A stretch of 52,367 nt of DNA, taken from assembly GCA_017415715.1 (NCBI GenBank), contig JAFQFD010000017.1:1-52367 (forward strand). Direction: 5' to 3'. The position numbers and the translations under genes are program-made. The stretch is from Bacteroidales bacterium. Lineage in GTDB: Bacteria > Bacteroidota > Bacteroidia > Bacteroidales > UBA932. The notes under the pieces are model-generated. The model ran no database searches and was not told the DNA's origin. It saw only the letters and a list, made by a program, of their open reading frames with translations. Shown here one piece after another: positions 20,228 through 49,605 of the stretch (position 1 is the first letter of the stretch; each line of letters starts with the position of its first letter).

Positions 20228-22630
20228 ATGAAACTCAACGTAAGTATCGAATACAGAACAAACTGGGGCGAGATGATCGTCCTCTGTATTGGTGGAAAGC
20301 GTTACCAGCTGACATATACTTCAGAGGGCCTCTGGGAGGGCGAAATCGCCCGTGTAAACATAGAGAAGTCTGCTGAATACAGCTACGAGGTGGTACGCGA
20401 CGGACTCACAGTGCGCACAGAGTGGAAGAAGCATACACTTGTCCTTCCTGAAGGCGTGGAGCCAAAGGCGCTCACAGTCTATGACAGATGGATCGACCGT
20501 CCTGAGGACTCTCCATTCTATTCATCAGCATTCACATCAGCCATATTCGGCAGACCTGCAGAGAAGGCAAAGAAGGCTCCTAAGGGTGCCAATGTGCTCA
20601 TACAGGTGGCTGCACCTGCGCTCAGACCTAATGAGGTCCTCGCGCTGGCAGGCAGCGGCAAAGCCCTCAAGGACTGGACAAAGGTCGTTCCTTTCGACGG
20701 CTCGAACTTCCCTGTATGGACACTCGCTCTCAATGTGACCGAGCCATTTGCATACAAGATCGTGATTGCAGACAAGAACTCGCTCGAGCCTCTGGCTTGG
20801 GAGAGCGGCGAGAACAGATGGTTCGCGGCGCTTCCTCAGAAGGATGAGCTCGTGGTTGAGGCAGACCTCAAGGTGAACTTCGAGGGAAGGGCATGGAGAG
20901 GAGCCGGCACGGCGATCCCTGTGTTCTCTCTCCGCAGTGAGGATGACTTCGGAGTAGGTGAGTTCTATGATCTCAAGAAGATGGTGGACTGGGCAGCAGA
21001 GACAGGCCAGAGCGTTCTCCAGCTCCTTCCGATCAACGACACCACAATGCTCCACACATGGGAGGATTCATATCCATACAACCCTAACTCGACCTTTGCG
21101 CTTCACCCTCAGTTCCTGCACCTTCCTGCAGTGGGAGTGAAGGAGGATGAGGCATACAAGGCTCTCCAGGCCGAGCTCAACGCTCTTGAGCAGATCGACT
21201 ACGAGCGCGTGAACAACGCCAAGCTCGAGCTCCTGCACAAGGCATTCGACAAGACATTCAAGAAGCTCTCATCCACAAAAAGCTATCAGAACTTTGTGGA
21301 CTCTAACGCTCACTGGCTTCTCCCATACGCTGCATTCTGTGTCCTCCGTGACCTTAACGGCACTCCGGACTTCTCGCAGTGGAAGGGATATGCAAAATAC
21401 AACAAGAAGAAGGTTGCAGCTTTCTGCGAGGAGCACAAGGCGGAGATCGATTTCTGGTGCTTCGTTCAGTATCACCTTGACCTTCAGCTCTCTGAGGTGT
21501 GCAAGTATGCTCACTCTCGTGGCGTGATCTTCAAGGGTGACCTTCCTATCGGCATCAGCCGCACCAGTGTTGACGCATGGCTCTATCCTGAGCTCTTCCA
21601 TATGGATTCTCAGGCGGGAGCACCACCTGATGCATTCTCGGCAGACGGTCAGAACTGGGGCTTCCCTACATACAACTGGGAGAAGATGGCAGAGGACGAC
21701 TTCGCATGGTGGAAGTCTCGTCTGGCTAAGATGTCGGAGTACTTCGACGCATTCCGCATCGACCATATCCTCGGATTCTTCCGCATCTGGGAGATTCCTC
21801 TCTGGACAAAGAGCGGCCTTAACGGCTACTTCAACCCGGCACTCCCTTATCCTGCTCACGAGCTTGCGTCACAGGGCTTCGACGTGACCAACTTCGACCT
21901 CTTCATGGAGGATCCGCGCAAGACCGGTCACTATCATCCTAAGATCGGCGCGAAGGCTACCCAGGGCTATCAGTGGCTGGACGCATATCGCCGTGCGGCG
22001 TTCGACCGTCTCTATGACGACTTCTTCTACCGTCGCAACAATGAGTTCTGGAAGGACAAGGCCATGCAGAAGCTTCCTGCACTTCTTGACTCTACAGGAA
22101 TGCTCGCATGCGGTGAGGACCTCGGAATGATCCCGGCAACAGTGCCTCAGGTGATGTCTGACCTCAGGATCCTCTCTCTCGAGATCCAGCGTATGCCAAA
22201 GTCGGTAGAGGAGACATTCGCACATCCTGCAAACTATCCATATCTGTCAGTATGTACGACATCAACTCACGACATGAACCCGATCCGCGCATGGTGGGAG
22301 GAAGACCGTCAGGTGACTGAGCAGTTCTGGCATATGATCCTCGGAAACCAGGGCGACGCGCCATATTTCTGCGAACCATGGATCTGCCGCCAGATCCTCG
22401 ACCAGCACCTCTGGTCACCGGCAATGCTCACAGTCCTTCCGCTTCAGGACTGGCTCTCGATGGACGGAGCGCTCCGCCGCCTCAACCCTAACGACGAGCG
22501 CATCAACGTGCCTGCGAACTCACGCCACTACTGGCGCTACCGCATGCACCTGACTCTCGAGCAGCTCGCTGCAGCCAAGGAGTTCAACACAACCCTCGCC
22601 GACATGATCGCGGCAAGCGGCCGTCGCTAG
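20228..22630 (+). CDS. malQ: 4-alpha-glucanotransferase (amylomaltase), GH77 with two N-terminal CBM20 domains
   Basis: An 800-residue cytoplasmic enzyme without signal peptide that disproportionates maltooligosaccharides and releases glucose. Two CBM20-like domains at about 1-95 and 125-235 precede the GH77 domain, as in plant DPE2. Catalytic residues are read as Asp512 in FRIDH, Glu630 in CGEDLG and Asp682 in THDMN. The codons are strongly biased (many CTC, CGC, ATC), suggesting high expression. It stands at the left end of the starch locus and is convergent with the two-component genes. Confidence 0.94.
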   Translation: MKLNVSIEYRTNWGEMIVLCIGGKRYQLTYTSEGLWEGEIARVNIEKSAEYSYEVVRDGLTVRTEWKKHTLVLPEGVEPKALTVYDRWIDRPEDSPFYSSAFTSAIFGRPAEKAKKAPKGANVLIQVAAPALRPNEVLALAGSGKALKDWTKVVPFDGSNFPVWTLALNVTEPFAYKIVIADKNSLEPLAWESGENRWFAALPQKDELVVEADLKVNFEGRAWRGAGTAIPVFSLRSEDDFGVGEFYDLKKMVDWAAETGQSVLQLLPINDTTMLHTWEDSYPYNPNSTFALHPQFLHLPAVGVKEDEAYKALQAELNALEQIDYERVNNAKLELLHKAFDKTFKKLSSTKSYQNFVDSNAHWLLPYAAFCVLRDLNGTPDFSQWKGYAKYNKKKVAAFCEEHKAEIDFWCFVQYHLDLQLSEVCKYAHSRGVIFKGDLPIGISRTSVDAWLYPELFHMDSQAGAPPDAFSADGQNWGFPTYNWEKMAEDDFAWWKSRLAKMSEYFDAFRIDHILGFFRIWEIPLWTKSGLNGYFNPALPYPAHELASQGFDVTNFDLFMEDPRKTGHYHPKIGAKATQGYQWLDAYRRAAFDRLYDDFFYRRNNEFWKDKAMQKLPALLDSTGMLACGEDLGMIPATVPQVMSDLRILSLEIQRMPKSVEETFAHPANYPYLSVCTTSTHDMNPIRAWWEEDRQVTEQFWHMILGNQGDAPYFCEPWICRQILDQHLWSPAMLTVLPLQDWLSMDGALRRLNPNDERINVPANSRHYWRYRMHLTLEQLAAAKEFNTTLADMIAASGRR

Positions 22631-22742: not shown

Positions 22743-23504
22743 TTATTTTTCCAGCCATTCCAGGAAGTCGTCCACTCGGGAGCGGCTTACCGTCATTTCA
22801 AACGAAGGTTCCGGGTTTGCGATTATGCGCAGGCGGCCTGCCTGCTTGATGATGCTCTTGATCGCCTGCATCGACACCACGCAGCTGCGTGACACTCTGA
22901 AGAAGTTTGCAGGGTTGAGTTCCTCACTGATGACATCAAGAGACGAGTCTATGATGTATTTCTTCTCGCCGAATGTAACGAGGTAGTTGTTCTTCTCCTC
23001 GGAATAAACATATGCTATGTCTTCCGTGCGTATCGGAATGATGCGGTCGTTGAAGCGTATGATGTATCTTTCCTTGTATTCCTTGCGAGGCTCCTGCATG
23101 CTGCCCATGGCCTTTGCAAGGGCTTCTATGTCTATCTGACCGCCGCTCATCCTGCATCTTGCGACGGCCCTCTTGAGGGCGGCCGGGTCGATCGGCTTGA
23201 GCAGGTAGTCCACGCTTCCTGCCTCGAAGGCCTTCAATGCATAACTGTCATATGCCGTGGTCATTATGACCTTGGCGTTGACGTTGACCTGTCTGAATAT
23301 CTCAAAGCATACGCCGTCAGACAGCTCGACATCCATGAAGATGATGTCGGCGCTGTTGGCCGGCTCCTTCAGCCATGCTACCGTACTTTTTACGGATGTG
23401 GTGGTCCCAACGACCTGCATGTCAGGGAAATGCTGGGTCAACACGCGGATCAGGCTCTTCTGCGCCATGATCTCATCTTCCACTATCAGGACTTTTGTTG
23501 CCAT
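22743..23504 (-). CDS. LytTR-family response regulator
   Basis: A 253-residue regulator. The receiver domain (1-120) has the acidic pair in VEDE, phospho-acceptor Asp58 in FMDVEL and Lys103 in LLKPID. A LytTR DNA-binding domain follows (about 145-250; ERYIIRFNDRIIPIRTEDIAYVYSEEKNN, then FFRVSRSCVVSMQAI). LytTR domains bind direct repeats of about 9-10 bp spaced by two helical turns, and such repeats are found at 24951-25002 and 42059-42110. Four bases separate it from its kinase gene. No SusR-like regulator is present in the window. Confidence 0.93.
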   Translation of the reverse strand: MATKVLIVEDEIMAQKSLIRVLTQHFPDMQVVGTTTSVKSTVAWLKEPANSADIIFMDVELSDGVCFEIFRQVNVNAKVIMTTAYDSYALKAFEAGSVDYLLKPIDPAALKRAVARCRMSGGQIDIEALAKAMGSMQEPRKEYKERYIIRFNDRIIPIRTEDIAYVYSEEKNNYLVTFGEKKYIIDSSLDVISEELNPANFFRVSRSCVVSMQAIKSIIKQAGRLRIIANPEPSFEMTVSRSRVDDFLEWLEK

Positions 23505-23508
23505 ATCT

Positions 23509-24891
23509 TTAAAGCAGAGGTAATGTTACACAATATTCCTTGTCTGTCTGCAGTATGCCGATCTCCTTGCCGGAGAGGTCCAGATACTGCTGTCTTATGT
23601 ATTTCTGACCCAATCCTGTGGATGGGTTTCTTGTCACTTTCGGCACAATGTTGTTGCTTACCGAGATCTCGTCACCGTCAACTTTGACGCTGATGTGCAG
23701 CGGATTGTCTGCCGTTACGGCGTTGTGCTTGGTCGCATTCTCGATCAGCAGCTGGAGCGAGCACGGGAGCACAAACCTTGCCATCATGTCTTCCGGCACG
23801 TCTATCTCCACCTCGAAGCCTTCAGGGAATCTCACTTTCAGCAGGTCTACATACAGACCGACGAAAACGAGCTCTTCGTGCAGCGGCACGAGGTCCTCGT
23901 CCTCGCTCTTGAGCATATATCTGTATATGCCGGCGAGTTTGTGTATATATGTGCTTGCCTGCTCGGTCTTCTCCTCGCACACGAGGCAGTCCAGGATGTT
24001 GAGGGAGTTGAACAGGAAGTGCGGATTGACCTGCCTCTTGAGCTTGAGATATCTGTATTGGGCCATGTTGGCCGCCTCTCTCTGCCTGTTCATTTCGTCG
24101 CGTGAGGTGAGGGCGTAGTTTATTATATATACTATGCAGTATACTGTGATCTGAGCCAGGATTGAGACGGTCAGCAGAATGCCGAGGTTTTCGCTGCCGC
24201 CCTGCTTTATGTTGAACGGTATGCCCAGGCCGACGATAAGCGCTTCAATGAGGGAAGCAATCACCATGAAGCCTATGAATATCAGTGTGTTGCCCCAAAT
24301 CGGCGTGCGCTCGCGGATCTGCCCGGCATATCTGATATACAGGATGTTGAGGCAGGTGAGAATGATGAGTCCGACGGTGTTCGAAAGGACCTTTCCGGTC
24401 ATGTCAAGAATATAGTCGGTCTCGAAGGACTCGCGCGAGAAGAACAGCACTATGAGGATTCGGATCACGAAGATGCCTCCGGCAGCGAGGAGGATCCATC
24501 GGATGTATGAAGTCGACAGGGTATGACCATCTGAATTGCTTTGCCTGAATATCTTGGTGATGGCCACTATGCTCCATCCGAGTACTTCGGTGGTGACGGC
24601 TGTCGAGAGCGCGTGTACAACATATGGAGACTGGAATATGAGCTCGAAAATGCTCGCTCCGAGCGTACCCATGAGGTATCCGATGATGTTTCCTACTATG
24701 ATTACTGCTGCCGTGAACTCGATGCTGACCTGCTTCTTGTAGCATATCAGCAGAGACATCGCCATCGTCAGCACGGTAAGCAGCAGTTCGTCGCCGACTC
24801 CCGCTATGCGGCAGATCAGCGCGACCGCTGCGTGCAGCAGCGCAAAGATGTGGATGATCCACGACGGACTTATGTTCCTGATACCCCTCAT
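23509..24891 (-). CDS. LytS-type sensor histidine kinase
   Basis: A 460-residue kinase with about seven or eight hydrophobic helices (residues 10-260), a short coiled stretch, and a His_kinase domain with phospho-acceptor His291 in QVNPHFLFNSLN, N-box LLIENATKHN and glycine motif STGLGQKYIRQQY. No periplasmic ligand domain is seen, so sensing is probably through the membrane part. The frame is open to 24996, but the ATG at 24891 follows a clear promoter, so it is used. It pairs with the LytTR regulator 4 bases downstream. Confidence 0.92.
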   Translation of the reverse strand: MRGIRNISPSWIIHIFALLHAAVALICRIAGVGDELLLTVLTMAMSLLICYKKQVSIEFTAAVIIVGNIIGYLMGTLGASIFELIFQSPYVVHALSTAVTTEVLGWSIVAITKIFRQSNSDGHTLSTSYIRWILLAAGGIFVIRILIVLFFSRESFETDYILDMTGKVLSNTVGLIILTCLNILYIRYAGQIRERTPIWGNTLIFIGFMVIASLIEALIVGLGIPFNIKQGGSENLGILLTVSILAQITVYCIVYIINYALTSRDEMNRQREAANMAQYRYLKLKRQVNPHFLFNSLNILDCLVCEEKTEQASTYIHKLAGIYRYMLKSEDEDLVPLHEELVFVGLYVDLLKVRFPEGFEVEIDVPEDMMARFVLPCSLQLLIENATKHNAVTADNPLHISVKVDGDEISVSNNIVPKVTRNPSTGLGQKYIRQQYLDLSGKEIGILQTDKEYCVTLPLL

Positions 24892-24910
24892 TTTGTATTC
24901 TTTTGCAGAC

Positions 24911-24941
24911 CAAAAGTAAGAAAAATGCTCCGATTCTCCAA
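24911..24941 (-). promoter_or_regulatory. Promoter of the histidine kinase/response regulator operon
   Basis: On the minus strand: TTG (24941-24939), a 20-base spacer, TACTTTTG (24918-24911), then the ATG at 24891. The triple direct-repeat element at 24951-25002 begins only 9 bases upstream of the -33 part, so the system may regulate itself. Confidence 0.65.
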
Positions 24942-24950
24942 TTTTTGGCT

Positions 24951-25002
24951 CACTTTCATCTCGGAAAACCGACCATTCGTCGGATTCTTCGCACAATTCG
25001 TC
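24951..25002 (+). promoter_or_regulatory. Triple 21-bp-spaced direct repeat, candidate LytTR operator (site A)
   Basis: Three half-sites, CACTTTCATC (24951), ACCATTCGTC (24972) and ACAATTCGTC (24993), start exactly 21 bp apart. The same 52-bp arrangement recurs at 42059-42110 with 40 of 52 positions identical. It lies in the divergent region between the two-component genes and the MFS-susC operon, 86 bp before the MFS start. Binding by the adjacent LytTR protein is inferred from spacing and context. Confidence 0.65.
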
Positions 25003-25087
25003 AAGAGGATTTCGCGCGTCTTATATATAATGATTATTTTAGCAAACATTTATAACACTGAAAATTTGTAACCAAAATCGCTATAAA

Positions 25088-26386
25088 ATGCAAAAAACAA
25101 AACTTACTTTCTGGCAGATGTGGAATATCAGCTTCGGATTTTTCGGAGTTCAGATCGCATATTCCCTTCAGAACGCCAATATCAGCCGTATTTTTGCAAC
25201 GCTTGGCGCAGACCCTCATGACCTGAGCTTCTTCTGGATTCTTCCGCCGCTCATGGGACTGATCGTGCAGCCTCTCGTCGGAAAATACAGCGACAGGACA
25301 TGGAACCGTCTCGGAAGACGTATCCCATACCTCTTCCTCGGTTCGATCATCGCCATCCTCGTGATGTGCATGCTCCCTAATGCAGGAAACTTCGGCCTCG
25401 CAGTGGGCGGCGCGATGACCTTCGGTCTCATCTCGCTCATGCTTCTGGACACATCCATTAACGTTGCGATGCAGCCGTTCAAGATGCTCGTGGGAGACAT
25501 GGTGAACGAGGAGCAGAAGGGCCAGGCATACTCTATCCAGAGCTTCCTCTGTAATGCCGGAAGCCTCGTGGGCTACCTCTTCCCGTTCATCTTCGCGTGG
25601 TTGGGCATCGCGAATGTCGCTCCTGAGGGACAGGTGCCTGACACAGTGAAGTATGCATTCTACATCGGTGCAGCCATCCTCATCCTCTGCGTTCTCTTCA
25701 CAACATTCAAGGTGAAGGAGATGCCTCCGAAGGAATATGCCGAGTTCCATGGCATAGACCCTGAGAAAAAGGAAGCGAAGGCTCCGGGAATGTTCACCCT
25801 CCTCAAGAATGCCCCTAAGACATTCTGGACAGTGGGTGTCGTTCAGTTCTTCTGCTGGGCGGCGTTCCTCTACATGTGGACTTACACCAACGGTGCAATC
25901 GCTGACACCTGCTGGGGCACTACAGACGTGGCTTCAGAAGGCTATCAGGCGGCAGGAAACTGGGTGGGCGTCCTCTTTGCAGTGCAGGCTGTAGGCTCGA
26001 TGCTCTGGGCTTTGGTGATCCCTAAGTTCAAGGATATCAAGGTTGCATATGTTGTCAGCCTCCTCATCGGAGCTGTCGGCTTTGCTTCGGTGTTCTTCAT
26101 CCACAACCAGTATGCTCTCGTATTGTCATTCCTCCTCATCGGAGCTGCATGGGCTGCAATGCTGGCTGTGCCGTTCACACTCCTAACCAACTCACTCTCG
26201 GGTGACCATATCGGCACATACCTCGGCCTCTTCAACGGCACAATCTGCCTTCCGCAGATCGCCGCTGCGGCTTGCGGCGGACTCGTCCTCAAGCTTGTAG
26301 GAGGCGCTCAGGTGAGCATGTTCCTCGTGGCTGCCGTCCTGCTCGTGCTCGGAGCGCTTGCAGTACGCCTTGTAAAGAAAGCTTAA
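25088..26386 (+). CDS. MFS sugar transporter, probable maltose/maltooligosaccharide importer
   Basis: A 432-residue 12-helix inner-membrane carrier. It begins TFWQMWNISFGFFGVQIAYSL and has LPPLMGLIVQPLVGKYSDRT followed by RLGRRIPYL, the loop 2-3 pattern of SLC45/sucrose-transporter-like MFS proteins. As first gene before susC1 it is the likely importer of the maltooligosaccharides or glucose released in the periplasm. The divergent region upstream holds the triple direct repeat. Codon use is strongly biased, as in the susC1 operon. Confidence 0.85.
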   Translation: MQKTKLTFWQMWNISFGFFGVQIAYSLQNANISRIFATLGADPHDLSFFWILPPLMGLIVQPLVGKYSDRTWNRLGRRIPYLFLGSIIAILVMCMLPNAGNFGLAVGGAMTFGLISLMLLDTSINVAMQPFKMLVGDMVNEEQKGQAYSIQSFLCNAGSLVGYLFPFIFAWLGIANVAPEGQVPDTVKYAFYIGAAILILCVLFTTFKVKEMPPKEYAEFHGIDPEKKEAKAPGMFTLLKNAPKTFWTVGVVQFFCWAAFLYMWTYTNGAIADTCWGTTDVASEGYQAAGNWVGVLFAVQAVGSMLWALVIPKFKDIKVAYVVSLLIGAVGFASVFFIHNQYALVLSFLLIGAAWAAMLAVPFTLLTNSLSGDHIGTYLGLFNGTICLPQIAAAACGGLVLKLVGGAQVSMFLVAAVLLVLGALAVRLVKKA

Positions 26387-26443: not shown

Positions 26444-29400
26444 ATGAACAGAATCAAGACACTATGCGCATCTCTCGTGCTTTTCTGCATGATGGGTGTG
26501 TCTGTATTCGCCCAGGGCGGATACGAGGTGAAAGGAGTAGTTGTTGACGCAATCGGTCCTGTTATCGGTGCCACTGTCATCGAGCAGGGTACCACCAACG
26601 GTACTTCGACCGGTCTCGACGGCGACTATGTCCTTACTGTTTCCAGCGCGAATGCCGTTGTGGAAGTAAGCTGCATCGGTTACGCAACACAGACTTTCGT
26701 TGCTTCTCAGCTTCCTCAGACTGTGACTCTCGCAGAGGACACTCAGTTCCTCGATGAGGTTGTGGTCATCGGTTATGGTACCGTGAAGAAGGAAGACATG
26801 ACAGGCTCAATCACCGCAATCAAGAGCGAGGAGCTCAACCGCGGTGCTATGGTTTCGACCCAGGACATGCTCAAGGGTAAGGTTCCTGGACTTCTCATCA
26901 CTCCTGGTGACGGTGGTCCTGGTTCAGGCTCTACAATCCGTATCCGTGGTGCCGCTTCCCTCAACGCATCTAACGATCCTCTCATCGTAATCGACGGTGT
27001 TCCGATCGCTCGCGAAGGTGGTTTCGGTATGTCGAACCCTCTCGATATGATCAACCCTAACGACATCGACTCATTCACTGTCCTCAAGGACGCATCTTCA
27101 GCTGCGATCTACGGTTCACGTGCATCAAACGGTGTCATCCTCATCACTACCAAGAAGGGTAAGGGCAACCGTCCTCAGGTTTCTTACAGCGGTAGCGTGA
27201 GCGTTCAGGCAAACTCAAGAAAACTCCAGGTTATGTCTCCAGAAGAGTTCCGTGGCTTCATCAAGGACACATACGGAATCTACTGGGAGGGTGAGACCCT
27301 CATGGGCGACACTTCAACTCCTGCAGGCAAGGCAATCGCCGCTCGCCTCAGCAAGGACCAGAATGTCGACTATCAGGACATCATCTTCAAGACCGCGATC
27401 ACTCACGACCATAACGTAAGCGTGAGCGGTAACGTAAATGAGCGCATGCCTTATCGTGCATCTCTCGGTTACACTGACCAGGCCGGTACACTCGTAGGCT
27501 CTACTTATGACAAGGGAACCCTCGACTTCAGCCTTTCTCCAAACTTCTTCGACAAGCACCTCACCCTCAACCTCAACGCAAAGGGTGTATACACTTACTC
27601 GAACTATGCTGACGGTGGTGTAGTAGGCAACGCAGCCTTCTTCAACCCTACTCAGGATCCATATTTCCGTCTTGAGGACGGTGTGACTATCGACAAGGAA
27701 ACTTGTAACGGTTACTTCAACTATGGTACAGGCCGTGGCGAGAACTTCGCTCCTAACACCCTCCTCGGCGTAGGTCCTATGTCACAGCTCTACGACCGCA
27801 TCAGCTTCGGTACTTCACGCCGTCTGATCGCGAGCGCAGGCATCGACTACAAGGTTCACGGTCTTGAGTCACTCCGTTTCAACGTGACTGCTTCAACTGA
27901 CGTTTCAGACTACAACAACAAGAACGGTTCAGTAGTAGGTTCATACCAGGCTTGGTCTGACACTGAGCACCGCGGTATCGGTCAGTATTCTAAGGAGTGG
28001 CAGCTCCGCCGCAGCTCGGCTCTCGAGGCTTATGCAAACTACAACGAGACATGGGGCATCCACAACCTCGACGTGATGGCAGGTTACTCTTGGCAGCACT
28101 TCTACGGTTCAAACCGCACAGTTTCTTACTTCAACGTGACTGACGAGGTCAAGCTCAATGAGGGCGAGACTGCAGAAGGACGTTATCCTACATGGAGATG
28201 GGAGAGCTTCCTCGTGTCATTCTACGGACGTATCAACTATTCTATCGCTTCGAAGTACCTCTTCACATTCTCACTCCGTAACGACGGTTCTTCACGCTTC
28301 TCTCCTGACACTCGCTGGGGTCTCTTCCCTTCAGGAGCATTCGCATGGAACATCAAGGAGGAGGGCTTCCTTAAGGACGTGAAGCCGGTTTCACAGTTGA
28401 AGCTTCGTCTCTCTGCAGGTATGACAGGTCAGCAGGACGGTATCGGCGAGTACGCTCACCTTTCACGTTACGGCCTCTCTACTGACGTTTACCAGCAGTA
28501 CTTCATGGGTTCTAACGGCTTCCAGTTCATGTGGACTCCAGGAGCTTACGACCCTAACATCAAGTGGGAGACAACCACTACTTACAACGTCGGTGTTGAC
28601 TTCGGATTCCTCGGTGACCGCATCACAGGTAACGTTGACGCTTACCTCCGCAACACTGATGACCTCCTCAACAGCGTCCTCACTCCAATGGGTTCAAACT
28701 TCGGTAACACCGTTCTTACAAACGTAGGTTCGATGCAGAACAAGGGTATCGAGTTCGCTTTGAACTTCATCCCTGTACAGACTAACGACTGGCATCTCTC
28801 TATCGGTGTTAACGGTACTTTCCAGGATACCAAGTTCACCAAGCTCAACGCAACTGACGACGACAGCTACTACATCCAGACTTCAGGTATCTCACACGGT
28901 ACAGGTTCTTATGTAGGTCGTCACCAGGTAGGTTACGCTCCATATTCATACTGGGTGTTCAAGCAGCTCTATGATTCAGAGGGCATGCCTATCCAGAACG
29001 CATTCGTTGACCTCAATGAGGACGGCGTGATCAACAATGACGACAAGTACTGCGCAGGCGATCCTAACCCTGACTTCTACTATGGTCTCAACATGAAGCT
29101 CTCATACAAGAACTGGGACTTCGGTTTCAACGGCCACGGTTCGTTCGGTTACAAGGTATTCAACGACTTCGCATCAAACAACTCTACAGCATACTTTGAT
29201 GTGAACGCTGGTAACCTTCCTAACTTCGCAACTGCTGTCAAGAGAACAGGCTTCACCCAGATCAGCGGTGACTACCAGTTCTTCTCTGACTTCTATCTTG
29301 AGGATGCTTCATTCTTCCGTATGGACGATATCAACCTCGGTTATACATTCAAGGATCTCGGCAAGTGGGGTGGCAACATCCGCGTAGCTGCATCATGCCA

Positions 29401-29524
29401 GAATGTATTCGTTCTCACAAAGTACTCTGGAATCGATCCTGAGATCAACAGCACTGACGGTGTTGACAGAACATTCTGGCCAAGACCTCGTACTTTCTCA
29501 GTTCGTCTTAACATCAACTTCTAA
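26444..29524 (+). CDS. susC: SusC-family TonB-dependent outer-membrane transporter (first copy)
   Basis: A 1026-residue protein: signal peptide (about 1-23, ending FAQGG), carboxypeptidase-regulatory-like domain (about 26-100), the DEVVVIGYG motif (104-112), a plug domain (about 115-240, with the SusC-typical IRIRGAASLNASNDPLIVID and ASSAAIYGSRASNGVILITT) and a 22-strand barrel ending in an aromatic residue (RLNINF). It imports starch oligosaccharides together with SusD. Codon choice is extremely biased (GGT, CTC, CGT, AAC), typical of top-expressed genes. Its stop overlaps the region of the susD start. A paralogue lies at 37222. Confidence 0.96.
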   Translation: MNRIKTLCASLVLFCMMGVSVFAQGGYEVKGVVVDAIGPVIGATVIEQGTTNGTSTGLDGDYVLTVSSANAVVEVSCIGYATQTFVASQLPQTVTLAEDTQFLDEVVVIGYGTVKKEDMTGSITAIKSEELNRGAMVSTQDMLKGKVPGLLITPGDGGPGSGSTIRIRGAASLNASNDPLIVIDGVPIAREGGFGMSNPLDMINPNDIDSFTVLKDASSAAIYGSRASNGVILITTKKGKGNRPQVSYSGSVSVQANSRKLQVMSPEEFRGFIKDTYGIYWEGETLMGDTSTPAGKAIAARLSKDQNVDYQDIIFKTAITHDHNVSVSGNVNERMPYRASLGYTDQAGTLVGSTYDKGTLDFSLSPNFFDKHLTLNLNAKGVYTYSNYADGGVVGNAAFFNPTQDPYFRLEDGVTIDKETCNGYFNYGTGRGENFAPNTLLGVGPMSQLYDRISFGTSRRLIASAGIDYKVHGLESLRFNVTASTDVSDYNNKNGSVVGSYQAWSDTEHRGIGQYSKEWQLRRSSALEAYANYNETWGIHNLDVMAGYSWQHFYGSNRTVSYFNVTDEVKLNEGETAEGRYPTWRWESFLVSFYGRINYSIASKYLFTFSLRNDGSSRFSPDTRWGLFPSGAFAWNIKEEGFLKDVKPVSQLKLRLSAGMTGQQDGIGEYAHLSRYGLSTDVYQQYFMGSNGFQFMWTPGAYDPNIKWETTTTYNVGVDFGFLGDRITGNVDAYLRNTDDLLNSVLTPMGSNFGNTVLTNVGSMQNKGIEFALNFIPVQTNDWHLSIGVNGTFQDTKFTKLNATDDDSYYIQTSGISHGTGSYVGRHQVGYAPYSYWVFKQLYDSEGMPIQNAFVDLNEDGVINNDDKYCAGDPNPDFYYGLNMKLSYKNWDFGFNGHGSFGYKVFNDFASNNSTAYFDVNAGNLPNFATAVKRTGFTQISGDYQFFSDFYLEDASFFRMDDINLGYTFKDLGKWGGNIRVAASCQNVFVLTKYSGIDPEINSTDGVDRTFWPRPRTFSVRLNINF

Positions 29525-29535
29525 TGAGGAGGAAA

Positions 29536-31167
29536 ATGACAATGAAACTTAAGAATATATTTTCCGCAGTGGCAGCTGCTGCAATGCTTACAGCCTGCGT
29601 CGGAGACCTCAACACCATTCCGTTGAATGAGACCGACGTGACTTCGGAGACCGCTTACGGCGCTGACGAGGCAGGCTATGTGCAGGGTCTTACCAAGATC
29701 TACTTCCAGCTCGTATCAAACAACACTCAGGACCTTCAGGTTGCTGACGGCGGTGCATCGGAGTTCATCCGTGCATTCTGGTCAACTCAGGAGGTTACCG
29801 CAGACGCTGCAAAGTGTGCATGGGGTGACGCATGGGTAAATGACCTCAACAACAACACTTGGAAGGGTGACGTCCTCAACGACGCTGTTTACGCAGTGTA
29901 TGTACGTACTCTCCAGGGTATCACTTATGTAAACGAGTATCTTCGTCAGACTTCAGATGCAAACCTCGACCTCAGAGGCTGCTCTGCTGACGTGAAGGCT
30001 AAGGTTCAGGAGTATCGTGCAGAGGCCCGTTTCCTCCGTGCATTCTTCTACTGGGCAGCCATGGATACTTTCGGACAGGTTCCATTCTCTACTGAGAACA
30101 CTCAGTTCGGTGGCGGATACAACCCTCCACAGGCACCTGCAGCAGAGATCTTCGACTTCATCGTAAGCGAACTCAACGACCTCGCTTCTGACGGCAGCGC
30201 AATGCCTGCAGCTCAGTCAAACTATCCACGTGCTGACAAGGGTTCCGTTCTCGGTCTCCTCGCTCGCGTATACCTCAATGCAGAGGTTTACACCGGTACA
30301 GCAATGTGGGCAGAGGCTAAGGCTACCTGCGAGAAGATCTACTCTCTCGGCTATGCCCTCGCTCCTACTCACGCAGAGCTTTTCCGCGGTGACAACGGTG
30401 AGAACCCTGATGCAAAGAAGGAGATGCTCTTCGCAGCTTCTTACAATGCTGAGCACACTCAGTCATACGGTGGTACTACCTACCTCACACTCTCTACTCT
30501 CTCAGGAGATGACGGCGCTGTGAACATCACAGGTATCAACGGTGGTTGGGCTGGTAACCGTGTTCCTTATGAGTATGTTCAGAAGTTCTTTACTGACGTG
30601 AAGAATCCTGACTACACAGCAGGTACATATGACTGTACAGACAAGCGTGCTTCTTACTTCTATATCAAGGGACGTACAGAGTCTATGCAGGACAACCTCA
30701 ATACATTCCTCAACGGATGGTCATGCATCAAGTTCAACAACGTTCCTCACGACGTGGAGGCTGTTGACTATGCAGCTACTGCAGCAACAAAGAACTTCTC
30801 AGACATCGACTGGCCTCTCATCCGTCTCGGTGAGATCCACCTCATCTATGCTGAGGCTTGTATGCATGCAGGCGGAGACGCTTCTGCACAGGTTAAGGCT
30901 CTTGCTGAGCGCGCAGGTGTAGCAGCTCCAGCAACTATCGACGCTGACTTCCTCATGGCAGAGCGCGCTCGCGAGCTCATGTGGGAGGCACACCGTCGTA
31001 CCGACCTCATCCGCTTCGGCAAGTGGATCAGCGGATACAACTGGACATACAAGGGTGGAAACTTCGGCGGACAGGATCTTCCTGAGCACTTCAACGTATT
31101 CCCAGTTCCTTCAACTGAGCTTGCAACTAACCTTGACCTTGACCAGAACCCTGGTTATGCGAGATAG
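29536..31167 (+). CDS. susD: SusD-family starch-binding outer-membrane lipoprotein (first copy)
   Basis: A 543-residue surface lipoprotein with lipobox MLTAC and the acidic sequence VGDL after the cysteine. The SusD/RagB fold is seen from the helical repeat pairs (YRAEARFLRAFFYWAAMDTFG) and the C-terminal RARELMWEAHRRTDLIRFGKW. It forms the lid of the SusC1 barrel and binds glycan. Starts at 29524 (overlapping the susC stop), 29536 and 29542 are possible; 29536 follows an AGGAGGA stretch. Codon bias is like susC1. Confidence 0.95.
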   Translation: MTMKLKNIFSAVAAAAMLTACVGDLNTIPLNETDVTSETAYGADEAGYVQGLTKIYFQLVSNNTQDLQVADGGASEFIRAFWSTQEVTADAAKCAWGDAWVNDLNNNTWKGDVLNDAVYAVYVRTLQGITYVNEYLRQTSDANLDLRGCSADVKAKVQEYRAEARFLRAFFYWAAMDTFGQVPFSTENTQFGGGYNPPQAPAAEIFDFIVSELNDLASDGSAMPAAQSNYPRADKGSVLGLLARVYLNAEVYTGTAMWAEAKATCEKIYSLGYALAPTHAELFRGDNGENPDAKKEMLFAASYNAEHTQSYGGTTYLTLSTLSGDDGAVNITGINGGWAGNRVPYEYVQKFFTDVKNPDYTAGTYDCTDKRASYFYIKGRTESMQDNLNTFLNGWSCIKFNNVPHDVEAVDYAATAATKNFSDIDWPLIRLGEIHLIYAEACMHAGGDASAQVKALAERAGVAAPATIDADFLMAERARELMWEAHRRTDLIRFGKWISGYNWTYKGGNFGGQDLPEHFNVFPVPSTELATNLDLDQNPGYAR

Positions 31168-31188
31168 TCATAAAACAGTTTAAAGAAT

Positions 31189-33330
31189 ATGAAAATTACA
31201 AAATATTTCCTTTCAATGGCAGCTGCAGCCGCTATGGTTGCAGGCTGCTACAAGCCTGAGATGAACCAGATCGCGGCTCCGGAGGATGTCGTTGCTCCAG
31301 TTCTCGAGGCTGTAGAGGGACCTATCGAAATCACTCCATCAAACATGGTGGACGGTGTGGTTGCCTTCACCTGGTCAGCTGCTGACTATGGTGTGCCTAC
31401 TCAGATCAACTACTCTCTCGAGGCAGCGACTGCTGCTGCTCCTGATGCTAAGGTGACTATCACTTCAGGTATCACAACTACTTCAGCAGAAGTTGATTAT
31501 GAGACTCTCAACGCAATTCTCTTCAACGACCTCGGCCTTGCTGACGGCGTAGCAGAGGATGTAAACTTCTCTATCGGAGTAAAGGTCGGTGAGTATGCAA
31601 AGATCTACTCAAACGTTGTTACCGTATCTTGCAAGGTGACTGCAGCTGAGAAGCAGTATCCTAAGCTCTGGGTTGTAGGTTCATACAACGGATGGGCTCA
31701 CGATGCTTCTAACCAGTTCCTCTTCGACTTTGCCGGTAATGACACTGTTTACCAGGGTATGATCGACTTCTCTGCAATCAACGAGGATCACTCTGCGAAC
31801 GAGTTCAAGATCACAGGTGGTGCATGGGGTACTGATGAGCACTCTATGAACGGTGCACACGATGCTGAGTCTAAGACCATCTCTCTCGTAGCAGGTGGCG
31901 GAGACAACATCAACGTATATCAGGCTAAGCGTTTCTATCACCTCACATTTGACCGCGCTCTTACTCTTACTGCTGATGTAAGCTTCGATCAGATCGGGGT
32001 TATCGGTGACTTCAACGGATGGGGTGCTGACGTAGTGATGAACTTCAACGCTTCTAAGCAGCGCTTCTACGCTGACGTTGAGTTCCCTGCAGACGGCGGC
32101 TTCAAGTTCCGTCTTGACGGTGGCTGGGATGTATCATACGGTTCAACAGGTTCAGGCGTTCTTGACAGCGGTGACAATATCCCTGTTAAGGCTGGTAACT
32201 ACCGTGTATACCTTAATATGAATAACTTCGCTGAGATGACTTATACTCTCGATGCCAAGATGTATGGCAAGGATGAGCCAACAGCTGGTACTACTACTCC
32301 AGAACCGGAGCCAGAGCCAACTCCTACCGTACAGGGCTGGGGCCTCGTAGGCGAGTACAACAGCTGGGGTGGAACTCCTGACGTGATGCTTGCTTCTGAC
32401 GGTACTTATCTCGTGGCTAAGGGTGTAGAACTCTCTGGTCAGGTCAAGTTCCGCAAGGACGGCGGCTGGGATGTGAACTTCGGTGCTCCAGGCGAGGTTG
32501 AGCCTGTAGAGATCGCTGTAAACACTGAGCTCGAGCTCGTAGCTGGCGGTAAGAACTTCACTATCGCAGCTGGTACATATGATGTATACCTCGACGATGC
32601 AAATGCAAAGGCTTGGTTCATCAACGACGGTTCATACCCTGGTGGTGACGTAGCTCCAGAGGCTTCTGAGTGGGGTGTTGTAGGTGTTGTCAATGGTTGG
32701 AACGCTCCAGACGTGACAATGTACAAGACTGCAACTGAAGGTCTCTTCGTGGCTTACAATGTTGCAATGCCTGACGGCGGTTTCAAGATTCGTGCAAACG
32801 GTGAGTGGAACGACGCTGCAAACTATGGTTTCGAGGCTGCCGGTACAGCAGCTGTAAACCACGCTTACAAGCTTATCTGCGGCGGTGGTTCAAAGGATAT
32901 CACTCTCGTTGCAGGAAACTATGACATCTGGTTCGACCTTACAAACTCTATGGTTTATATAATGGCTCCTGGTACTCCAATCTCTGAAGCAGAGGGTGGC
33001 ATTATCGAGGCACCGGATCCATCTACTCAGAACTGGTATCTTGTAGGTAACTTCAACGGCTGGGCGACAGGTGACGCCAACTATCAGTTCACAAAGGAAG
33101 GTGACTGGTACGTGTTCAAGGGCTTCACTGCTGACGGACAGGGCGTCAAGTTCAACGCAGGCAGCTGGGATGAGAACCGTGGAGGAACATTCGTTGCTGC
33201 AAACGAAGCTATCGCAGTTGCTCACAACGGATCAGACATGCTCGTTGCTGCTGGTACATACGATGTGTACATGAATGCAGCTACAGACACAGCATACTTC
33301 ATGGAAGTAGGAAAGACTCCTGCTAACTAA
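31189..33330 (+). CDS. SusE/SusF-like surface lipoprotein with five starch-binding modules
   Basis: A 713-residue lipoprotein (lipobox ending at Cys20, followed by YKPE). A SusE-type N-terminal Ig domain (about 35-150) is followed by five modules, each opening with a pattern like WxVGxxNGW: about 158-262, 266-358, 383-480, 493-596 and 614-709. A Pro/Glu/Thr linker (365-381) splits two modules from three. Known SusE has two and SusF three such starch-binding modules, so this single gene has the content of both. It should hold starch at the surface next to SusC1/D1. It follows susD by 21 bases. Confidence 0.9.
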   Translation: MKITKYFLSMAAAAAMVAGCYKPEMNQIAAPEDVVAPVLEAVEGPIEITPSNMVDGVVAFTWSAADYGVPTQINYSLEAATAAAPDAKVTITSGITTTSAEVDYETLNAILFNDLGLADGVAEDVNFSIGVKVGEYAKIYSNVVTVSCKVTAAEKQYPKLWVVGSYNGWAHDASNQFLFDFAGNDTVYQGMIDFSAINEDHSANEFKITGGAWGTDEHSMNGAHDAESKTISLVAGGGDNINVYQAKRFYHLTFDRALTLTADVSFDQIGVIGDFNGWGADVVMNFNASKQRFYADVEFPADGGFKFRLDGGWDVSYGSTGSGVLDSGDNIPVKAGNYRVYLNMNNFAEMTYTLDAKMYGKDEPTAGTTTPEPEPEPTPTVQGWGLVGEYNSWGGTPDVMLASDGTYLVAKGVELSGQVKFRKDGGWDVNFGAPGEVEPVEIAVNTELELVAGGKNFTIAAGTYDVYLDDANAKAWFINDGSYPGGDVAPEASEWGVVGVVNGWNAPDVTMYKTATEGLFVAYNVAMPDGGFKIRANGEWNDAANYGFEAAGTAAVNHAYKLICGGGSKDITLVAGNYDIWFDLTNSMVYIMAPGTPISEAEGGIIEAPDPSTQNWYLVGNFNGWATGDANYQFTKEGDWYVFKGFTADGQGVKFNAGSWDENRGGTFVAANEAIAVAHNGSDMLVAAGTYDVYMNAATDTAYFMEVGKTPAN

Positions 33331-33347
33331 TCCATAAATCTTATAAG

Positions 33348-33440
33348 CCAGCGGCCCTTGACCGGACCGCTGGTTTCCAGGATACCCGGTCAAGTCGGGT
33401 CAGACCACTGCCATTGCGAGTGAAGCGTGGCAATCTATAG
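33348..33440 (+). repeat. Intercistronic stem-loop and dispersed repeat between the SusE/F-like and amylase genes
   Basis: CCAGCGG (33348-33354) and CCGCTGG (33367-33373) form a stem with TTT after it. It is followed by a dispersed-repeat-like stretch (GCCATTGCGAGTGAAGCGTG, about 33411-33430). The stem could end or attenuate transcription, or protect the 3' end of the abundant upstream message, so that the amylase gene is expressed less. Confidence 0.5.
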
Positions 33441-33463
33441 ATTAATAGTTTAATAGTATAGAA

Positions 33464-36325
33464 ATGAAAAGAATCATTTTCCTAATCATGACTATGGCCT
33501 TTGTAGCCATAGGCTGCAACAAGAATCTCGAGCAGTTCACCGTGACTCCGACTTCGCTGGAATTCAGCGGCGATGCGGGCAGTCAGACAGTGACTGTGAC
33601 AGCAGGTGAGACATGGGTGCTCAAGATCAATGGCGGCGGTTCATGGCTTACCACCTCAAAGACTTATGGCAAGTCGTCAGGTCAGGTTGAGGTTTCAGTG
33701 ACCGCCAATGCTCCTGCAGAGCGCACGGCTGAAATCGTATTCAGTTGTGCAGGTCAGTCTGTGAAGGTGGCTGTAAAGCAGGCACCGGGAACTGCTGAGG
33801 AGACTGTCGAGAAAGGTGAATTCTATCCTGAACCAACATCAGGAATCGAGGTTGACCCTGTGTGCCCTAACGCAGACAAGCCATGTACAATCATCTTCAA
33901 GCCGGCTTCGGACAACCCTCTCTACGGCCACGCAGGTGAGCTTTATGGCCACTTCGGTGTTGTTGTGGACGGTGAGTGGAAGTATGTGCCAAGTGATTGG
34001 GGTGTGGCTGATGAGAAGGTGCACTTCAAGAAGGTTGCAGACAACCACTGGGAGTTCAAGATGGAGCCTTCTATCCGTGAATATTTCGGCAGCGGCGAGA
34101 CTCCTGTGACCAAGATTGCATTGATCGTGAGGTCAGAGGACGGCAATACCAAGAGCCACGATGCAGACCAGTTCTGCTCTGTGATTGATGACAAGTATAA
34201 GGCAGAGGAGTTTACTCCGGATCCGCTCGTGACCAAGAAACTTCCTGAGGGAGTCAAGCATGGCATCAACTACAATGCGGACGGCAGCGTGACCTTCGTG
34301 TTCTATGACAAGGATACTGCAGGCAAGAGCCACAAGTATTGCTATATCGTAGGAGATTGGAATGAGTGGACACGCAAGACTGAGGGCGCGATGTACTATG
34401 ACGGCTCGCAGGGCTGCTGGTGGATCACCCTTGACGGATTCGATGCAGACAAGGAGTACAGGTTCCAGTATCGTCTCGGCAACAATTCAGGCTCTGACAC
34501 ATATGTCAGCGATCCTTATACAGAGATAGTTTACGACCAGTGGAACGACCAGTACATTGCAGGTGTTCCTGCATTCCCGGAGGGTGCAAAGCAGCTTGTG
34601 TCTGCATTCCAGATTAACAAACCGGAGTATGCATGGAAGCATAAGGACTTCAAGGTTGAGGATAAGAATGACCTCGTGATCTATGAGATGCTCTTCCGTG
34701 ACTTCACAACATCTCAGGATATCGAGGGTGCCATGGCTCAGCTCGATTACATCGAGAATCTCGGCGTGAACGCAATTGAGCTCATGCCTGTTCAGGAGTT
34801 TGACGGCAACCTCAGCTGGGGATATAATCCTAATCACTGGTTTGCGCTCGACAAGTACTATGGTACACGTGAGGAATATAAGGACTTCATTGACGAGTGC
34901 CATGCACGTGGCATCGCAGTCATCATAGACGTGGTATACAACCATGCAACAGGCTCACACCCATGGGCAAAGATGTGGTGGGACGGTGCAAACAACTGCA
35001 CAGCAGAGAATAACCCTTGGTTCAACGTGGTTGCGAAGCATGAGTTCAATGTATATCACGACATGAATCATGAGAATGCCATGGTTAAGGAGCATGTGAA
35101 GAGAAGCCTCGAGCATCTCCTCACCGAGTATGACGTGGACGGATTCCGTTTCGACCTTACAAAGGGATTCACTCAGAACAACACCCTCGGTGATGTTGGA
35201 GCATGGGGCCGTTACGATCAGTCTCGCGTGGACATCCTCAAAGGTTATGCAGACCACATCTGGTCCGTTAATGAGAATGCTGTCGTGATCTTCGAGCACC
35301 TTGCAGACTATAGCGAGGAGAAGATTCTTGCCGAGCATGGCATCAAGCTCTGGAGAAACATGAACGGCACTTACCGTTCTGCAGTAAACGGCGGAAGCGG
35401 TGACTTCTCAGGTTCATATGAGAATAACCTCTACGGCGGCTGGGTAAGCTATATGGAGAGCCACGATGAGGAGCGTCTCTGCTACGGTGCAGGTGCTGAT
35501 GCTTCTTCAGTGACTTGGGGTATCTGCGGTACTCTCACTGACTGGAGTTCGGATATCACAATGGCAGCTGATGGCGCATTCTTCTCAGCGAAGGGTGTTA
35601 CATTCAAGGCTGACGATATGTTCAAGATCCGTAAGGTAGGTGAGTGGAATGATGCATTCAACTATGGTGCTTCAACCAAGGGCTACAAGCTTCCTCTCAA
35701 TACAGAATATAAGCTTACACTTGGCTCCGGATCACAGGATATGGCAGTTCCTGCCGCTGGCACTTATGATGTATACTTCAGCCTTGCAGCTGAGAAGGTA
35801 TGGCTCATGGAGGCCGGCAAGCGTCCTGCAGATCCTTCAGTGACTCCGGGTGGCGGTGCAGCTGAAGATCCCCTCACAGTGGCTATGCGCCGTGCAGGAG
35901 CTTCTGCAGCGTTCTTCCTCACTGTCCCTGGTCCGAAGATGATCTGGCAGTTCGGTGAGATTGGATATGACTACTCTATCGACTACAATGACCGTACAGG
36001 CGAGAAGCCGGTTGTTACAGATCAGTATATGGCCGTACCGGCCCGCAAGGCTCTCTATGATACATATGCTGCTCTCCTGAAGTTCCGTCGCGAGAACCCT
36101 CGCTTCTTCGACAGCGATGCTTCATTCACATGGACTCCGACCGGCAACCTGAAGAAGATTACATGTACAGTGGACGGCAAGAGCTTCCACGTGGTAGGAA
36201 ACTTCGCAAAGAATCAGACCAGCTACACTGTCCCTTCCGGCACATGGACCGACTACATCAACGGTGGTACAGTATCAGGCAGCATCACCCTCAAAGAGGG
36301 CGAATTCCGCCTCCTGACCAAGTAA
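33464..36325 (+). CDS. Surface GH13 alpha-amylase lipoprotein with an inserted SusE/F-type module (SusG analogue)
   Basis: A 953-residue lipoprotein (lipobox ending at Cys18, then NKNLE). In order: BACON domain (about 22-107), a SusF-like N-terminal domain (about 128-242), a CBM48-like domain (about 265-350) and a GH13 catalytic domain from about 403 (LVIYEMLFRDF). Catalytic residues are read as Asp564 (GFRFD), Glu611 (VIFEHLAD) and Asp668 (MESHDEE). Right after the last motif a SusE/F-type module (about 676-790) interrupts the barrel, which resumes at about 800 and includes GPKMIWQFGEIGYDYS. The role matches SusG, endo-cleavage of starch at the surface, but the domain plan differs. It is last in the susC1 operon. 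Confidence 0.9.
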   Translation: MKRIIFLIMTMAFVAIGCNKNLEQFTVTPTSLEFSGDAGSQTVTVTAGETWVLKINGGGSWLTTSKTYGKSSGQVEVSVTANAPAERTAEIVFSCAGQSVKVAVKQAPGTAEETVEKGEFYPEPTSGIEVDPVCPNADKPCTIIFKPASDNPLYGHAGELYGHFGVVVDGEWKYVPSDWGVADEKVHFKKVADNHWEFKMEPSIREYFGSGETPVTKIALIVRSEDGNTKSHDADQFCSVIDDKYKAEEFTPDPLVTKKLPEGVKHGINYNADGSVTFVFYDKDTAGKSHKYCYIVGDWNEWTRKTEGAMYYDGSQGCWWITLDGFDADKEYRFQYRLGNNSGSDTYVSDPYTEIVYDQWNDQYIAGVPAFPEGAKQLVSAFQINKPEYAWKHKDFKVEDKNDLVIYEMLFRDFTTSQDIEGAMAQLDYIENLGVNAIELMPVQEFDGNLSWGYNPNHWFALDKYYGTREEYKDFIDECHARGIAVIIDVVYNHATGSHPWAKMWWDGANNCTAENNPWFNVVAKHEFNVYHDMNHENAMVKEHVKRSLEHLLTEYDVDGFRFDLTKGFTQNNTLGDVGAWGRYDQSRVDILKGYADHIWSVNENAVVIFEHLADYSEEKILAEHGIKLWRNMNGTYRSAVNGGSGDFSGSYENNLYGGWVSYMESHDEERLCYGAGADASSVTWGICGTLTDWSSDITMAADGAFFSAKGVTFKADDMFKIRKVGEWNDAFNYGASTKGYKLPLNTEYKLTLGSGSQDMAVPAAGTYDVYFSLAAEKVWLMEAGKRPADPSVTPGGGAAEDPLTVAMRRAGASAAFFLTVPGPKMIWQFGEIGYDYSIDYNDRTGEKPVVTDQYMAVPARKALYDTYAALLKFRRENPRFFDSDASFTWTPTGNLKKITCTVDGKSFHVVGNFAKNQTSYTVPSGTWTDYINGGTVSGSITLKEGEFRLLTK

Positions 36326-42058: not shown

Positions 42059-42110
42059 CACTTTCGTCTATGAAATCCGACCATTCGTCATAATCTTTCG
42101 ACATTTCGGC
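42059..42110 (+). promoter_or_regulatory. Triple 21-bp-spaced direct repeat, candidate LytTR operator (site B)
   Basis: Half-sites CACTTTCGTC (42059), ACCATTCGTC (42080) and ACATTTCGGC (42101) start 21 bp apart. This matches site A at 24951 in order, spacing and 40 of 52 bases, including an uninterrupted 13-bp match CCGACCATTCGTC. It ends 77 bp before the pullulanase ATG. Both sites are followed by CTTATATAT. Confidence 0.65.
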
Positions 42111-42141
42111 TTATATATTAAAATATATAAGAAATTGTGCG

Positions 42142-42149
42142 TATATTCG
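42142..42149 (+). promoter_or_regulatory. Probable -7 box of the pullulanase operon
   Basis: TATATTCG is one base off TAnnTTTG and lies 38 bases before the ATG at 42188 and 31 bases after the last half-site of operator B. No good -33 TTTG is present, which would suit an activator-dependent promoter. Confidence 0.45.
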
Positions 42150-42187
42150 TAAGATGTGTTAAAAAGCACATGAGGATTTGCTAACAA

Positions 42188-44155: not shown

Positions 44156-44166
44156 AAACACAAAAT

Positions 44167-45384
44167 ATGAAGAAGACATTATTTGCAATCTGCGCTGCTC
44201 TCATCGTCCTGTCATGCGGACAGGCTCCGAAGCAGCAGCCTCTTGAAAATTCAGTGGTCTATGAGATGAACGTACGCCAGTACACTCCTGAGGGAACTTT
44301 CGCTGCGGCTCAGCAGGAGCTGCCTCGCCTCAAGGAGCTCGGCATCGACATCCTCTGGCTCATGCCTATTCATCCTATCGGAGTGAAGGAGCGCAAGGGA
44401 ACCCTCGGTTCATACTACGCAATCGCAGACTATAAGGCAATCAACCCTGAGTTCGGTACGATGGAGGACTTCGAGAACTTCCTCGCAGCCGCACACAAGC
44501 TCGGCTTCCGCGTGGTTCTCGACTGCGTCGCAAACCACACTTCGCCTGACGCAAAGTGGATCAACGAGTACCCTGCAGACTGGTACATGCGTGACTCTCT
44601 CGGCAACACAGTGGTGAACTATGACTGGTATGACATCGCAGAGCTCAACTACGGCAAGAGAGAAGTATGGGATGCAATGGCGGACCAGATGCGCTTCTGG
44701 ATGGAGAAGGGTGTAGACGGATTCCGCTGCGACATGGCATGTGAGGTTCCGCTCGAGTTCTGGCAGGAGACCATCTCGGCTCTCCGCGAGGACTATCCTG
44801 GAATGTATATGCTCGCAGAGGGCGAGGAGCCGAAGCTCCACTCGCTTTCCGGCTTCAACTCATCATACGCATGGGAACTCCACCATATGCTCAACGCCAT
44901 AGCACGCGGTGAGAAGAACATCCCTGAGCTTCTCGAGTACATTCAGAAGGATGCGGAGAGACACCCTGCAGATGCCTTCCGACTCATGTTCACTTCAAAC
45001 CACGATGAGAACTCATGGGCAGGTACCGAGTTCGAGAGAATGGGTGATGCGGCAAAGCTCATGGCTGTGCTCACATTCACTCTTCCAAGCGGCCAGCCTC
45101 TCATCTACACAGGTCAGGAGATGGGCTGGAACAAGAGATTCGAATTCTTCGAGAAAGATCATATCCCTGCATGGGAGAAGAACGAGTACTTCGACTTCTA
45201 CAAGTGGCTCATCGACGTCCGTCACAACAATCCTGCACTCGCTGCAGGCGACAAGGGCGGCAAGTTCGAGGTCGTTTCAGCAGAGGACAGCGTGCTCGTA
45301 TTCACCCGCACACTCCCTGACAACAAGGTTACGGTAAAGGCAGAGCTCAAGGCTCCATGGTCATATGAAATCACAGCAGAGTAA
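44167..45384 (+). CDS. GH13 alpha-amylase-family lipoprotein
   Basis: A 405-residue compact GH13 enzyme with a lipobox ending at Cys17 (GQAPK follows). Only the catalytic barrel with a short C-terminal domain is present, with no binding modules. Conserved regions are DCVANHTS, Asp189 in DGFRCDMA, Glu218 in LAEGEEP and Asp280 in TSNHDEN. It likely hydrolyses maltooligosaccharides in the periplasm. It starts 11 bases after pulA, and its stop shares one base with the next ATG (45384). Confidence 0.9.
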   Translation: MKKTLFAICAALIVLSCGQAPKQQPLENSVVYEMNVRQYTPEGTFAAAQQELPRLKELGIDILWLMPIHPIGVKERKGTLGSYYAIADYKAINPEFGTMEDFENFLAAAHKLGFRVVLDCVANHTSPDAKWINEYPADWYMRDSLGNTVVNYDWYDIAELNYGKREVWDAMADQMRFWMEKGVDGFRCDMACEVPLEFWQETISALREDYPGMYMLAEGEEPKLHSLSGFNSSYAWELHHMLNAIARGEKNIPELLEYIQKDAERHPADAFRLMFTSNHDENSWAGTEFERMGDAAKLMAVLTFTLPSGQPLIYTGQEMGWNKRFEFFEKDHIPAWEKNEYFDFYKWLIDVRHNNPALAAGDKGGKFEVVSAEDSVLVFTRTLPDNKVTVKAELKAPWSYEITAE

Positions 45385-47312: not shown

Positions 47313-47313
47313 C

Positions 47314-47363
47314 TGTCATTTCGACCGAACGATAAAAACAGTCTGTCATTTCGACCGAACGAA
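47314..47363 (+). repeat. Tandem direct repeat of a 20-bp sequence between susA-like and susB genes
   Basis: CTGTCATTTCGACCGAACGA occurs at 47314-47333 and again, identically, at 47344-47363 (30-bp step). The second copy is followed by AGTGAGTGGAGAAATCTG. This is a well-known kind of dispersed intergenic repeat in Bacteroidota. It probably does not stop transcription into susB. Confidence 0.7.
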
Positions 47364-47400
47364 GTGAGTGGAGAAATCTGTTAAACTGAAAATAATATAA

Positions 47401-49605
<2,205 letters not shown>

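Follow-up and report, generated by a model that had tools for sequence, protein, structure and literature searches.

The window analysed here is a whole stretch of 52,367 nucleotides, positions 1-52,367 of the forward strand of contig JAFQFD010000017.1 from Bacteroidales bacterium GCA_017415715.1. It carries genes for a histidine kinase and a LytTR response regulator that are divergent from an MFS transporter gene, which is followed by genes for SusC, SusD, SusE and GH13 proteins (Table 1). The kinase N-terminus is hydrophobic and multi-spanning, with hydrophobic segments within residues 7-262. A second SusC-SusD pair is located between this starch locus and the pullulanase genes. Two sets of three direct repeats, designated candidate operators A and B, precede the MFS gene and the pullulanase gene, and B lies between the second SusD gene and the pullulanase gene. 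A matrix scan of the window detected no triple upstream of the second SusC gene.

Table 1 Features of the starch region and of one small-RNA copy
Feature	Position	Strand	Sequence or evidence
CBM20-GH77 4-alpha-glucanotransferase, neighbour	20228..22630	+	also found close to this kinase-regulator pair in some relatives
Response regulator, receiver + LytTR, presumed binder	22743..23504	-	Pfam Response_reg 2e-15, LytTR 5.7e-19
LytS-type histidine kinase	23509..24891	-	Pfam His_kinase 4.6e-22 (scanned on longer frame 23509-24996)
Candidate -7 box, divergent kinase promoter	24911..24918	-	TACTTTTG, read by eye
Half-site 1, candidate operator A	24951..24960	+	CACTTTCATC; third copy beside best pair in 15/28 held-out loci
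Half-site 2, candidate operator A	24972..24981	+	ACCATTCGTC; strict pattern and profile
Half-site 3, candidate operator A	24993..25002	+	ACAATTCGTC; strict pattern and profile
Candidate -7 box, MFS-sus promoter	25035..25042	+	TATTTTAG, 1 mismatch to TAnnTTTG; 32 bp past half-site 3
MFS sugar transporter, first gene 3' of A	25088..26386	+	Pfam MFS_1 / MFS_2
Starch locus: SusC, SusD, SusE-type, GH13 (BACON, CBM48) genes	26444..36325	+	Pfam
Half-site 1, candidate operator B	42059..42068	+	CACTTTCGTC; profile
Half-site 2, candidate operator B	42080..42089	+	ACCATTCGTC; strict pattern and profile
Half-site 3, candidate operator B	42101..42110	+	ACATTTCGGC; weakest copy, as the profile match stops at 42102
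Candidate -7 box, pullulanase promoter	42142..42149	+	TATATTCG, 1 mismatch; 31 bp past half-site 3
Pullulanase, GH13, cyclomaltodextrinase-type GH13, GH97 genes, 3' of B	42188..49605	+	same order in G199 and G200
Small-RNA copy	L184:3662-3862 = own contig C35:66661-66861		invariant core of about 40 nt plus terminator; multicopy family

A sequence-only reading of the window had reported the six 10-mers, and all were found exactly at the positions it gave. Its count of 40 identical bases out of 52 between 24951-25002 and 42059-42110 was reproduced; by part, the half-sites agree at 27/30 and the linkers at 13/22 bases. The distance of about 80 bp that it noted before the starch operons, taken from the last half-site to the ATG, amounts to 85 bp for A (from 25002 to 25088) and 77 bp for B (from 42110 to 42188).

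Occurrence of the repeats in the genome and in relatives

A matrix built from the six half-sites scored 41.3 for triple A and 41.1 for triple B, values that are circular because A and B themselves supplied the matrix; the best non-overlapping triple in the window scored 10.9. We then searched the own genome (56 contigs, 2,579,522 bases), which is 86% complete, so that further operator copies may be missing. The strict pattern ACNNTTCGTC-N11-ACNNTTCG matched without mismatch only at 24972 and 42080. When as many as two mismatches were tolerated, it gave 15 matches, against 63 for a reversed control pattern, and is thus uninformative by itself. The most similar additional match of the loose pattern (C44:126059) lies inside a reading frame and was rejected. 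Six of 199 family genomes matched the strict pattern; the matches in the five genomes other than our own were judged by eye to be coding sequence or a long tandem repeat (G032) and were discarded. The G032 repeat (L023, C28 near 10529) is a long array of half-site-like 21-bp repeats that is probably unrelated.

Because the strict pattern is too strict for diverged sites, a profile was used instead. As an independent test, we built a sequence-only profile from the sites of 25 relatives, with the own genome excluded. In the own genome it ranked A first (E=1.8e-5), B second (E=6.2e-4) and C35:66659 third (E=0.042), with all other matches at E>=1.75. Genome matches scattered away from glycan genes would have told against the sequence-only reading, as would a lack of conservation; no such scatter was seen, A and B lead the ranking, and the sites are kept in related genomes.

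A kinase search of 149 family genomes gave matches in 81 at E<=1e-20. Besides the own genome, seven near-full-length kinase matches have a divergent MFS gene (L029-L035), and all seven carry the triple, with a poor first copy in L033. At four near-full-length matches that are divergent from another gene (L038-L041), no triple was found. From a scan of named genomes 80 loci were retained, of which 39, including Alistipes, Rikenellaceae, Candidatus Cryptobacteroides, Tidjanibacter and unnamed Bacteroidales, were read further. In many Bacteroidales, the LytTR regulator and kinase adjoin a starch locus of the MFS-SusC kind: the MFS gene and the kinase are immediate divergent neighbours in 30/39 loci, and a regulator match lies right behind the kinase in 38 of the 39 (all except L099).

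For a held-out test of spacing, we scored 28 of the 39 loci with a matrix whose seed sites came from L029-L035 and the own genome, leaving out L063 and L095 (the same as training loci) and nine loci in which the MFS gene and the kinase start are not immediate divergent neighbours. Triples of at least 20 bits occurred at a spacing of 21 in 19/28 loci and at any other spacing (11-20 or 22-32) in 0/28; shuffled sequences (0/1400) and the other strand (0/28) gave none. Nine of the 28 loci fell below 20 bits, and two of these nine (L069 and L071) lacked any triple within 350 bp. In 25/28 loci, each of the two copies in the best pair reached at least 4 bits, a level passed by 1.1% of background 10-mers. 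A third copy at this level stood on one side of the best pair in 15/28 loci and on both sides in 0/28, and the next slots outward were nearly empty (1/26 and 0/27). Three copies are therefore common and two are commoner.

Across the 199 family genomes, the profile gave 22 matches in 21 genomes at E<=1e-3. Read by position, 17 lie upstream of an MFS gene, a single one (operator B) precedes pullulanase, and the remaining four are away from starch genes (G042, G097, G108 and G146). The match in G146 (L257, C133 near 3600) is a run of 21-bp TCCGATCGTC repeats that overlaps a reading frame and is longer than a triple. The profile rows had been picked from loci with recognisable sites, and seven of the 21 matched genomes supplied training rows. 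MFS-side matches in genomes without training rows came from the own genome, G118, G165, G177, G071, G077, G089, G100, G135 and G168.

A further profile search covered 16 genomes, 14 of which had supplied training rows. In two of them (G199 and G200) the pullulanase operon is conserved and a profile match lies immediately before it (E 4.4e-5 and 3.8e-6). By matrix these pullulanase-side sites are weak (19.6 in G199, below 17 in G200), and the second spacing in G200 is 22, not 21. In a third genome (G107), a susC-susD operon on a different contig is preceded by a triple (E 0.016). No convincing site was found before pulA in L091 and L092.

Promoter geometry and the candidate regulator

Downstream of the repeats, an exact TAnnTTTG box was present in 21/43 sequences. 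The box starts 32 bp after the last half-site in 16 of these 21, at 31 bp in one, at 33 bp in one and at 42-43 bp in three, two of which are small-RNA promoters. The boxes after A and B have one mismatch each. When the box could have one mismatch and the last half-site could be degenerate (52-54), 32/35 loci fitted, compared with 0 to 7 loci at seven shifted control offsets; a shift of -20 gave 28 because it overlaps the tested offsets. The last half-site thus typically stands 32 bp before a Bacteroides-type -7 box, which is the position of an activator. The Bacteroides promoters listed in PMC6193735 have a 19-bp spacer, and in LRS operons about 10 bp often separate the LytTR repeats from the -35 (PMC6193735). 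Provided that the spacer is 19 bp here, some 9 bp would separate the last half-site from the predicted -33 box.

We interpret each triple as very probably a three-site activator operator through which the LytTR response regulator encoded beside A (22743-23504) would control the starch genes. The neighbouring kinase would sense a starch-related cue and phosphorylate the regulator, molecules of which would then bind the three direct repeats on one face of the DNA, two helical turns apart. From the last repeat, just upstream of the presumed -33 box, RNA polymerase could be recruited to a putative MFS-SusC-SusD-SusE-GH13 operon at A and to a putative pullulanase operon at B. The LytTR regulon on starch genes that the sequence-only reading had suggested is backed by the profile ranks, the held-out spacing and the linkage to two-component genes across loci, all of them evidence at the level of sequence. 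Four other LytTR-domain matches in the own genome are possible alternative binders. An FFRISR-type stretch, with single changes, is common to the LytTR parts of the regulators compared, a sample of 30 loci plus L292 and L293 rather than every match, and was not seen in the four paralogues.

The repeats might instead be bound by a hybrid two-component (AraC-type, HTCS) regulator encoded elsewhere in the genome. Reg_prop repeats are a mark of HTCS sensors, and proteins with such repeats, possible alternative binders, are encoded on other contigs of the own genome. Predicted HTCS motifs in B. thetaiotaomicron likewise consist of direct repeats before glycan operons, averaging 21 bp apart (PMC3878776). 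However, these motifs are described with two sites, not three, for a regulator that is a single fused protein (PMC3878776), the triple accompanies the LytTR pair and MFS gene across many loci, and no fused sensor-AraC regulator was found among the 16 window proteins scanned (unscanned window frames are at most 538 aa). We regard binding by an HTCS as quite improbable.

Triple A lies about 60 bp from the kinase start, and it had been read as abutting the two-component promoter. Its place between two divergent genes is as claimed, but in gene-order variants it is found away from the kinase start. Five loci (L250-L254) have the order GH77, kinase-regulator, triple, MFS-SusC-SusD. The triple is between the regulator and the MFS gene in L066 and at the MFS gene, away from the kinase, in L070. 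In L256 one gene intervenes between regulator and MFS, and the profile match stops about 80 bp short of the MFS match. As it stays with the MFS gene when gene order changes, the triple appears to follow the MFS promoter, not the two-component genes. These loci, the second copy before pullulanase and the 32-bp distance, which runs to the MFS-side -7 box, leave little room for the idea that the triple acts chiefly on the kinase-regulator genes, as their repressor or autoregulatory site, and stands before the MFS gene by accident. Coincidence, or common ancestry of a promoter segment that has no role in regulation, is hardly credible: A and B do agree at linker bases as well and a duplication is possible, but the spacing and the -7 box distance are kept while linkers differ between loci, the profile puts both sites at the top of the own genome, and the held-out spacing test contradicts it.

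A LytTR operator also agrees with known systems in its dimensions. The repeats are 10-mers with 11-nt spacers, within the 9-11 nt direct repeats and 11-13 nt spacers described for the LytTR operators of LytS/LytTR systems and LRS operons (YpdB, HdrR; PMC4847170, PMC6193735). They differ from YpdB- and HdrR-type operators, as described there, in having three repeats rather than two, in standing at Bacteroidales starch loci and in facing a Bacteroides-type promoter. Three in a row had been called unusual; this holds, but such an arrangement is known for LytTR proteins, since the operators of RcoM-1 and CoxC likewise have three direct repeats two helical turns apart (PMC11347149). RcoM-1 and CoxC are described as CO-responsive, with other repeat sequences and without a separate kinase, and CoxC represses (PMC11347149). 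The regulator here has a receiver domain and a separate kinase and is not a one-component gas sensor of that type.

SusR of Bacteroides is the best-known model for starch use in Bacteroidota. In Bacteroides thetaiotaomicron it likewise regulates starch (sus) operons, as a single-piece membrane protein whose predicted sites are spaced by 67 or 77 bp (PMC3878776), in contrast to the kinase, LytTR regulator and 21-bp spacing found here. Our analyses point to another wiring of the same kind of genes, by a separate kinase and a LytTR activator. We found no description of LytTR control of a Bacteroidota starch locus among the matches listed in a search of titles and abstract openings of the open-licence literature. 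The parts of the candidate operator can be counted (three sites, a set spacing and a set promoter distance), which makes LytTR assembly on more than two sites testable.

A small-RNA family and the MFS leader

A segment with no obvious gene, terminating in a hairpin and a T-run, follows the third profile match in the own genome (C35:66659). Over 201 bp this segment is 88% identical in G200, with two half-sites upstream and, 42 bp further on, a -7 box; in both the own and the G200 copies the two upstream half-sites are 21 bp apart. The segment belongs to a multicopy small-RNA family. Among the small-RNA loci read through L221 (L222-L237 were outside the sample), the core was present in 25 and absent from nine, and only 2/25 copies have half-sites upstream. 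The small RNA or its core matched in 28/199 family genomes, namely all 19 of the genus in the sample and, with short matches only, nine outside it, and the small RNA or its core matched in 17/20 genomes of the named loci. The core follows a tRNA-Cys(GCA) gene in 7/7 loci given to ARAGORN (L193, L195, L196, L197, L198, L216 and L220), which had been picked because this adjacency was apparent. Rfam returned nothing at gathering threshold for the small RNA (best below it, BTnc049 at 21.3 bits against 81.9), and its single-strand fold is not special (z -1.06).

The core is complementary to the MFS leader, at about 25039-25077 of the window. Predicted pairing of the core with this leader beats 100/100 shuffled cores, which is true of 0/25 other window starts, pullulanase included; with a different leader window, 1/60 shuffled cores equals it. 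We scored 47 leaders behind triples (two more were too short), and z is below -2 in 15/47, compared with 4% of 150 random windows, a control unmatched for leader composition. By genome, z is below -2 in 14/26 leaders with the small RNA and 1/8 without (Mann-Whitney p 0.002 on rounded z, kinship uncorrected); this comparison used 34 of the 47 and omitted ten from genomes unsearched for the small RNA and three pulA leaders. For the three pulA leaders there is no sign of pairing (z -0.9, 0.2 and 0.8).

These patterns raise the speculative and rather doubtful idea that the regulator runs an incoherent feed-forward loop. It would turn on MFS-sus transcription through the triple and one small-RNA copy through the two half-sites, and the core would damp translation of the MFS gene. 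Several results run counter to this: the pulA leaders lack a pairing signal, the L029 leader is predicted to pair strongly (z -2.8) in a genome (G004) where the small RNA has no match, and pairing is poor in several genomes that do bear it (L033, L059 and L064). A functional parallel to the proposed small-RNA arm is the repression of susC translation by FopS sRNAs in Bacteroides (PMC11697453).

Outside the small-RNA copies, an antisense word of the core lies within 45 nt before an ATG-led frame at 15/19 occurrences, compared with 445/1920 random positions. A further leader, near position 1500 of L284 (own contig C21) and before a gene that looks by eye like a sugar kinase, is also complementary to the core.
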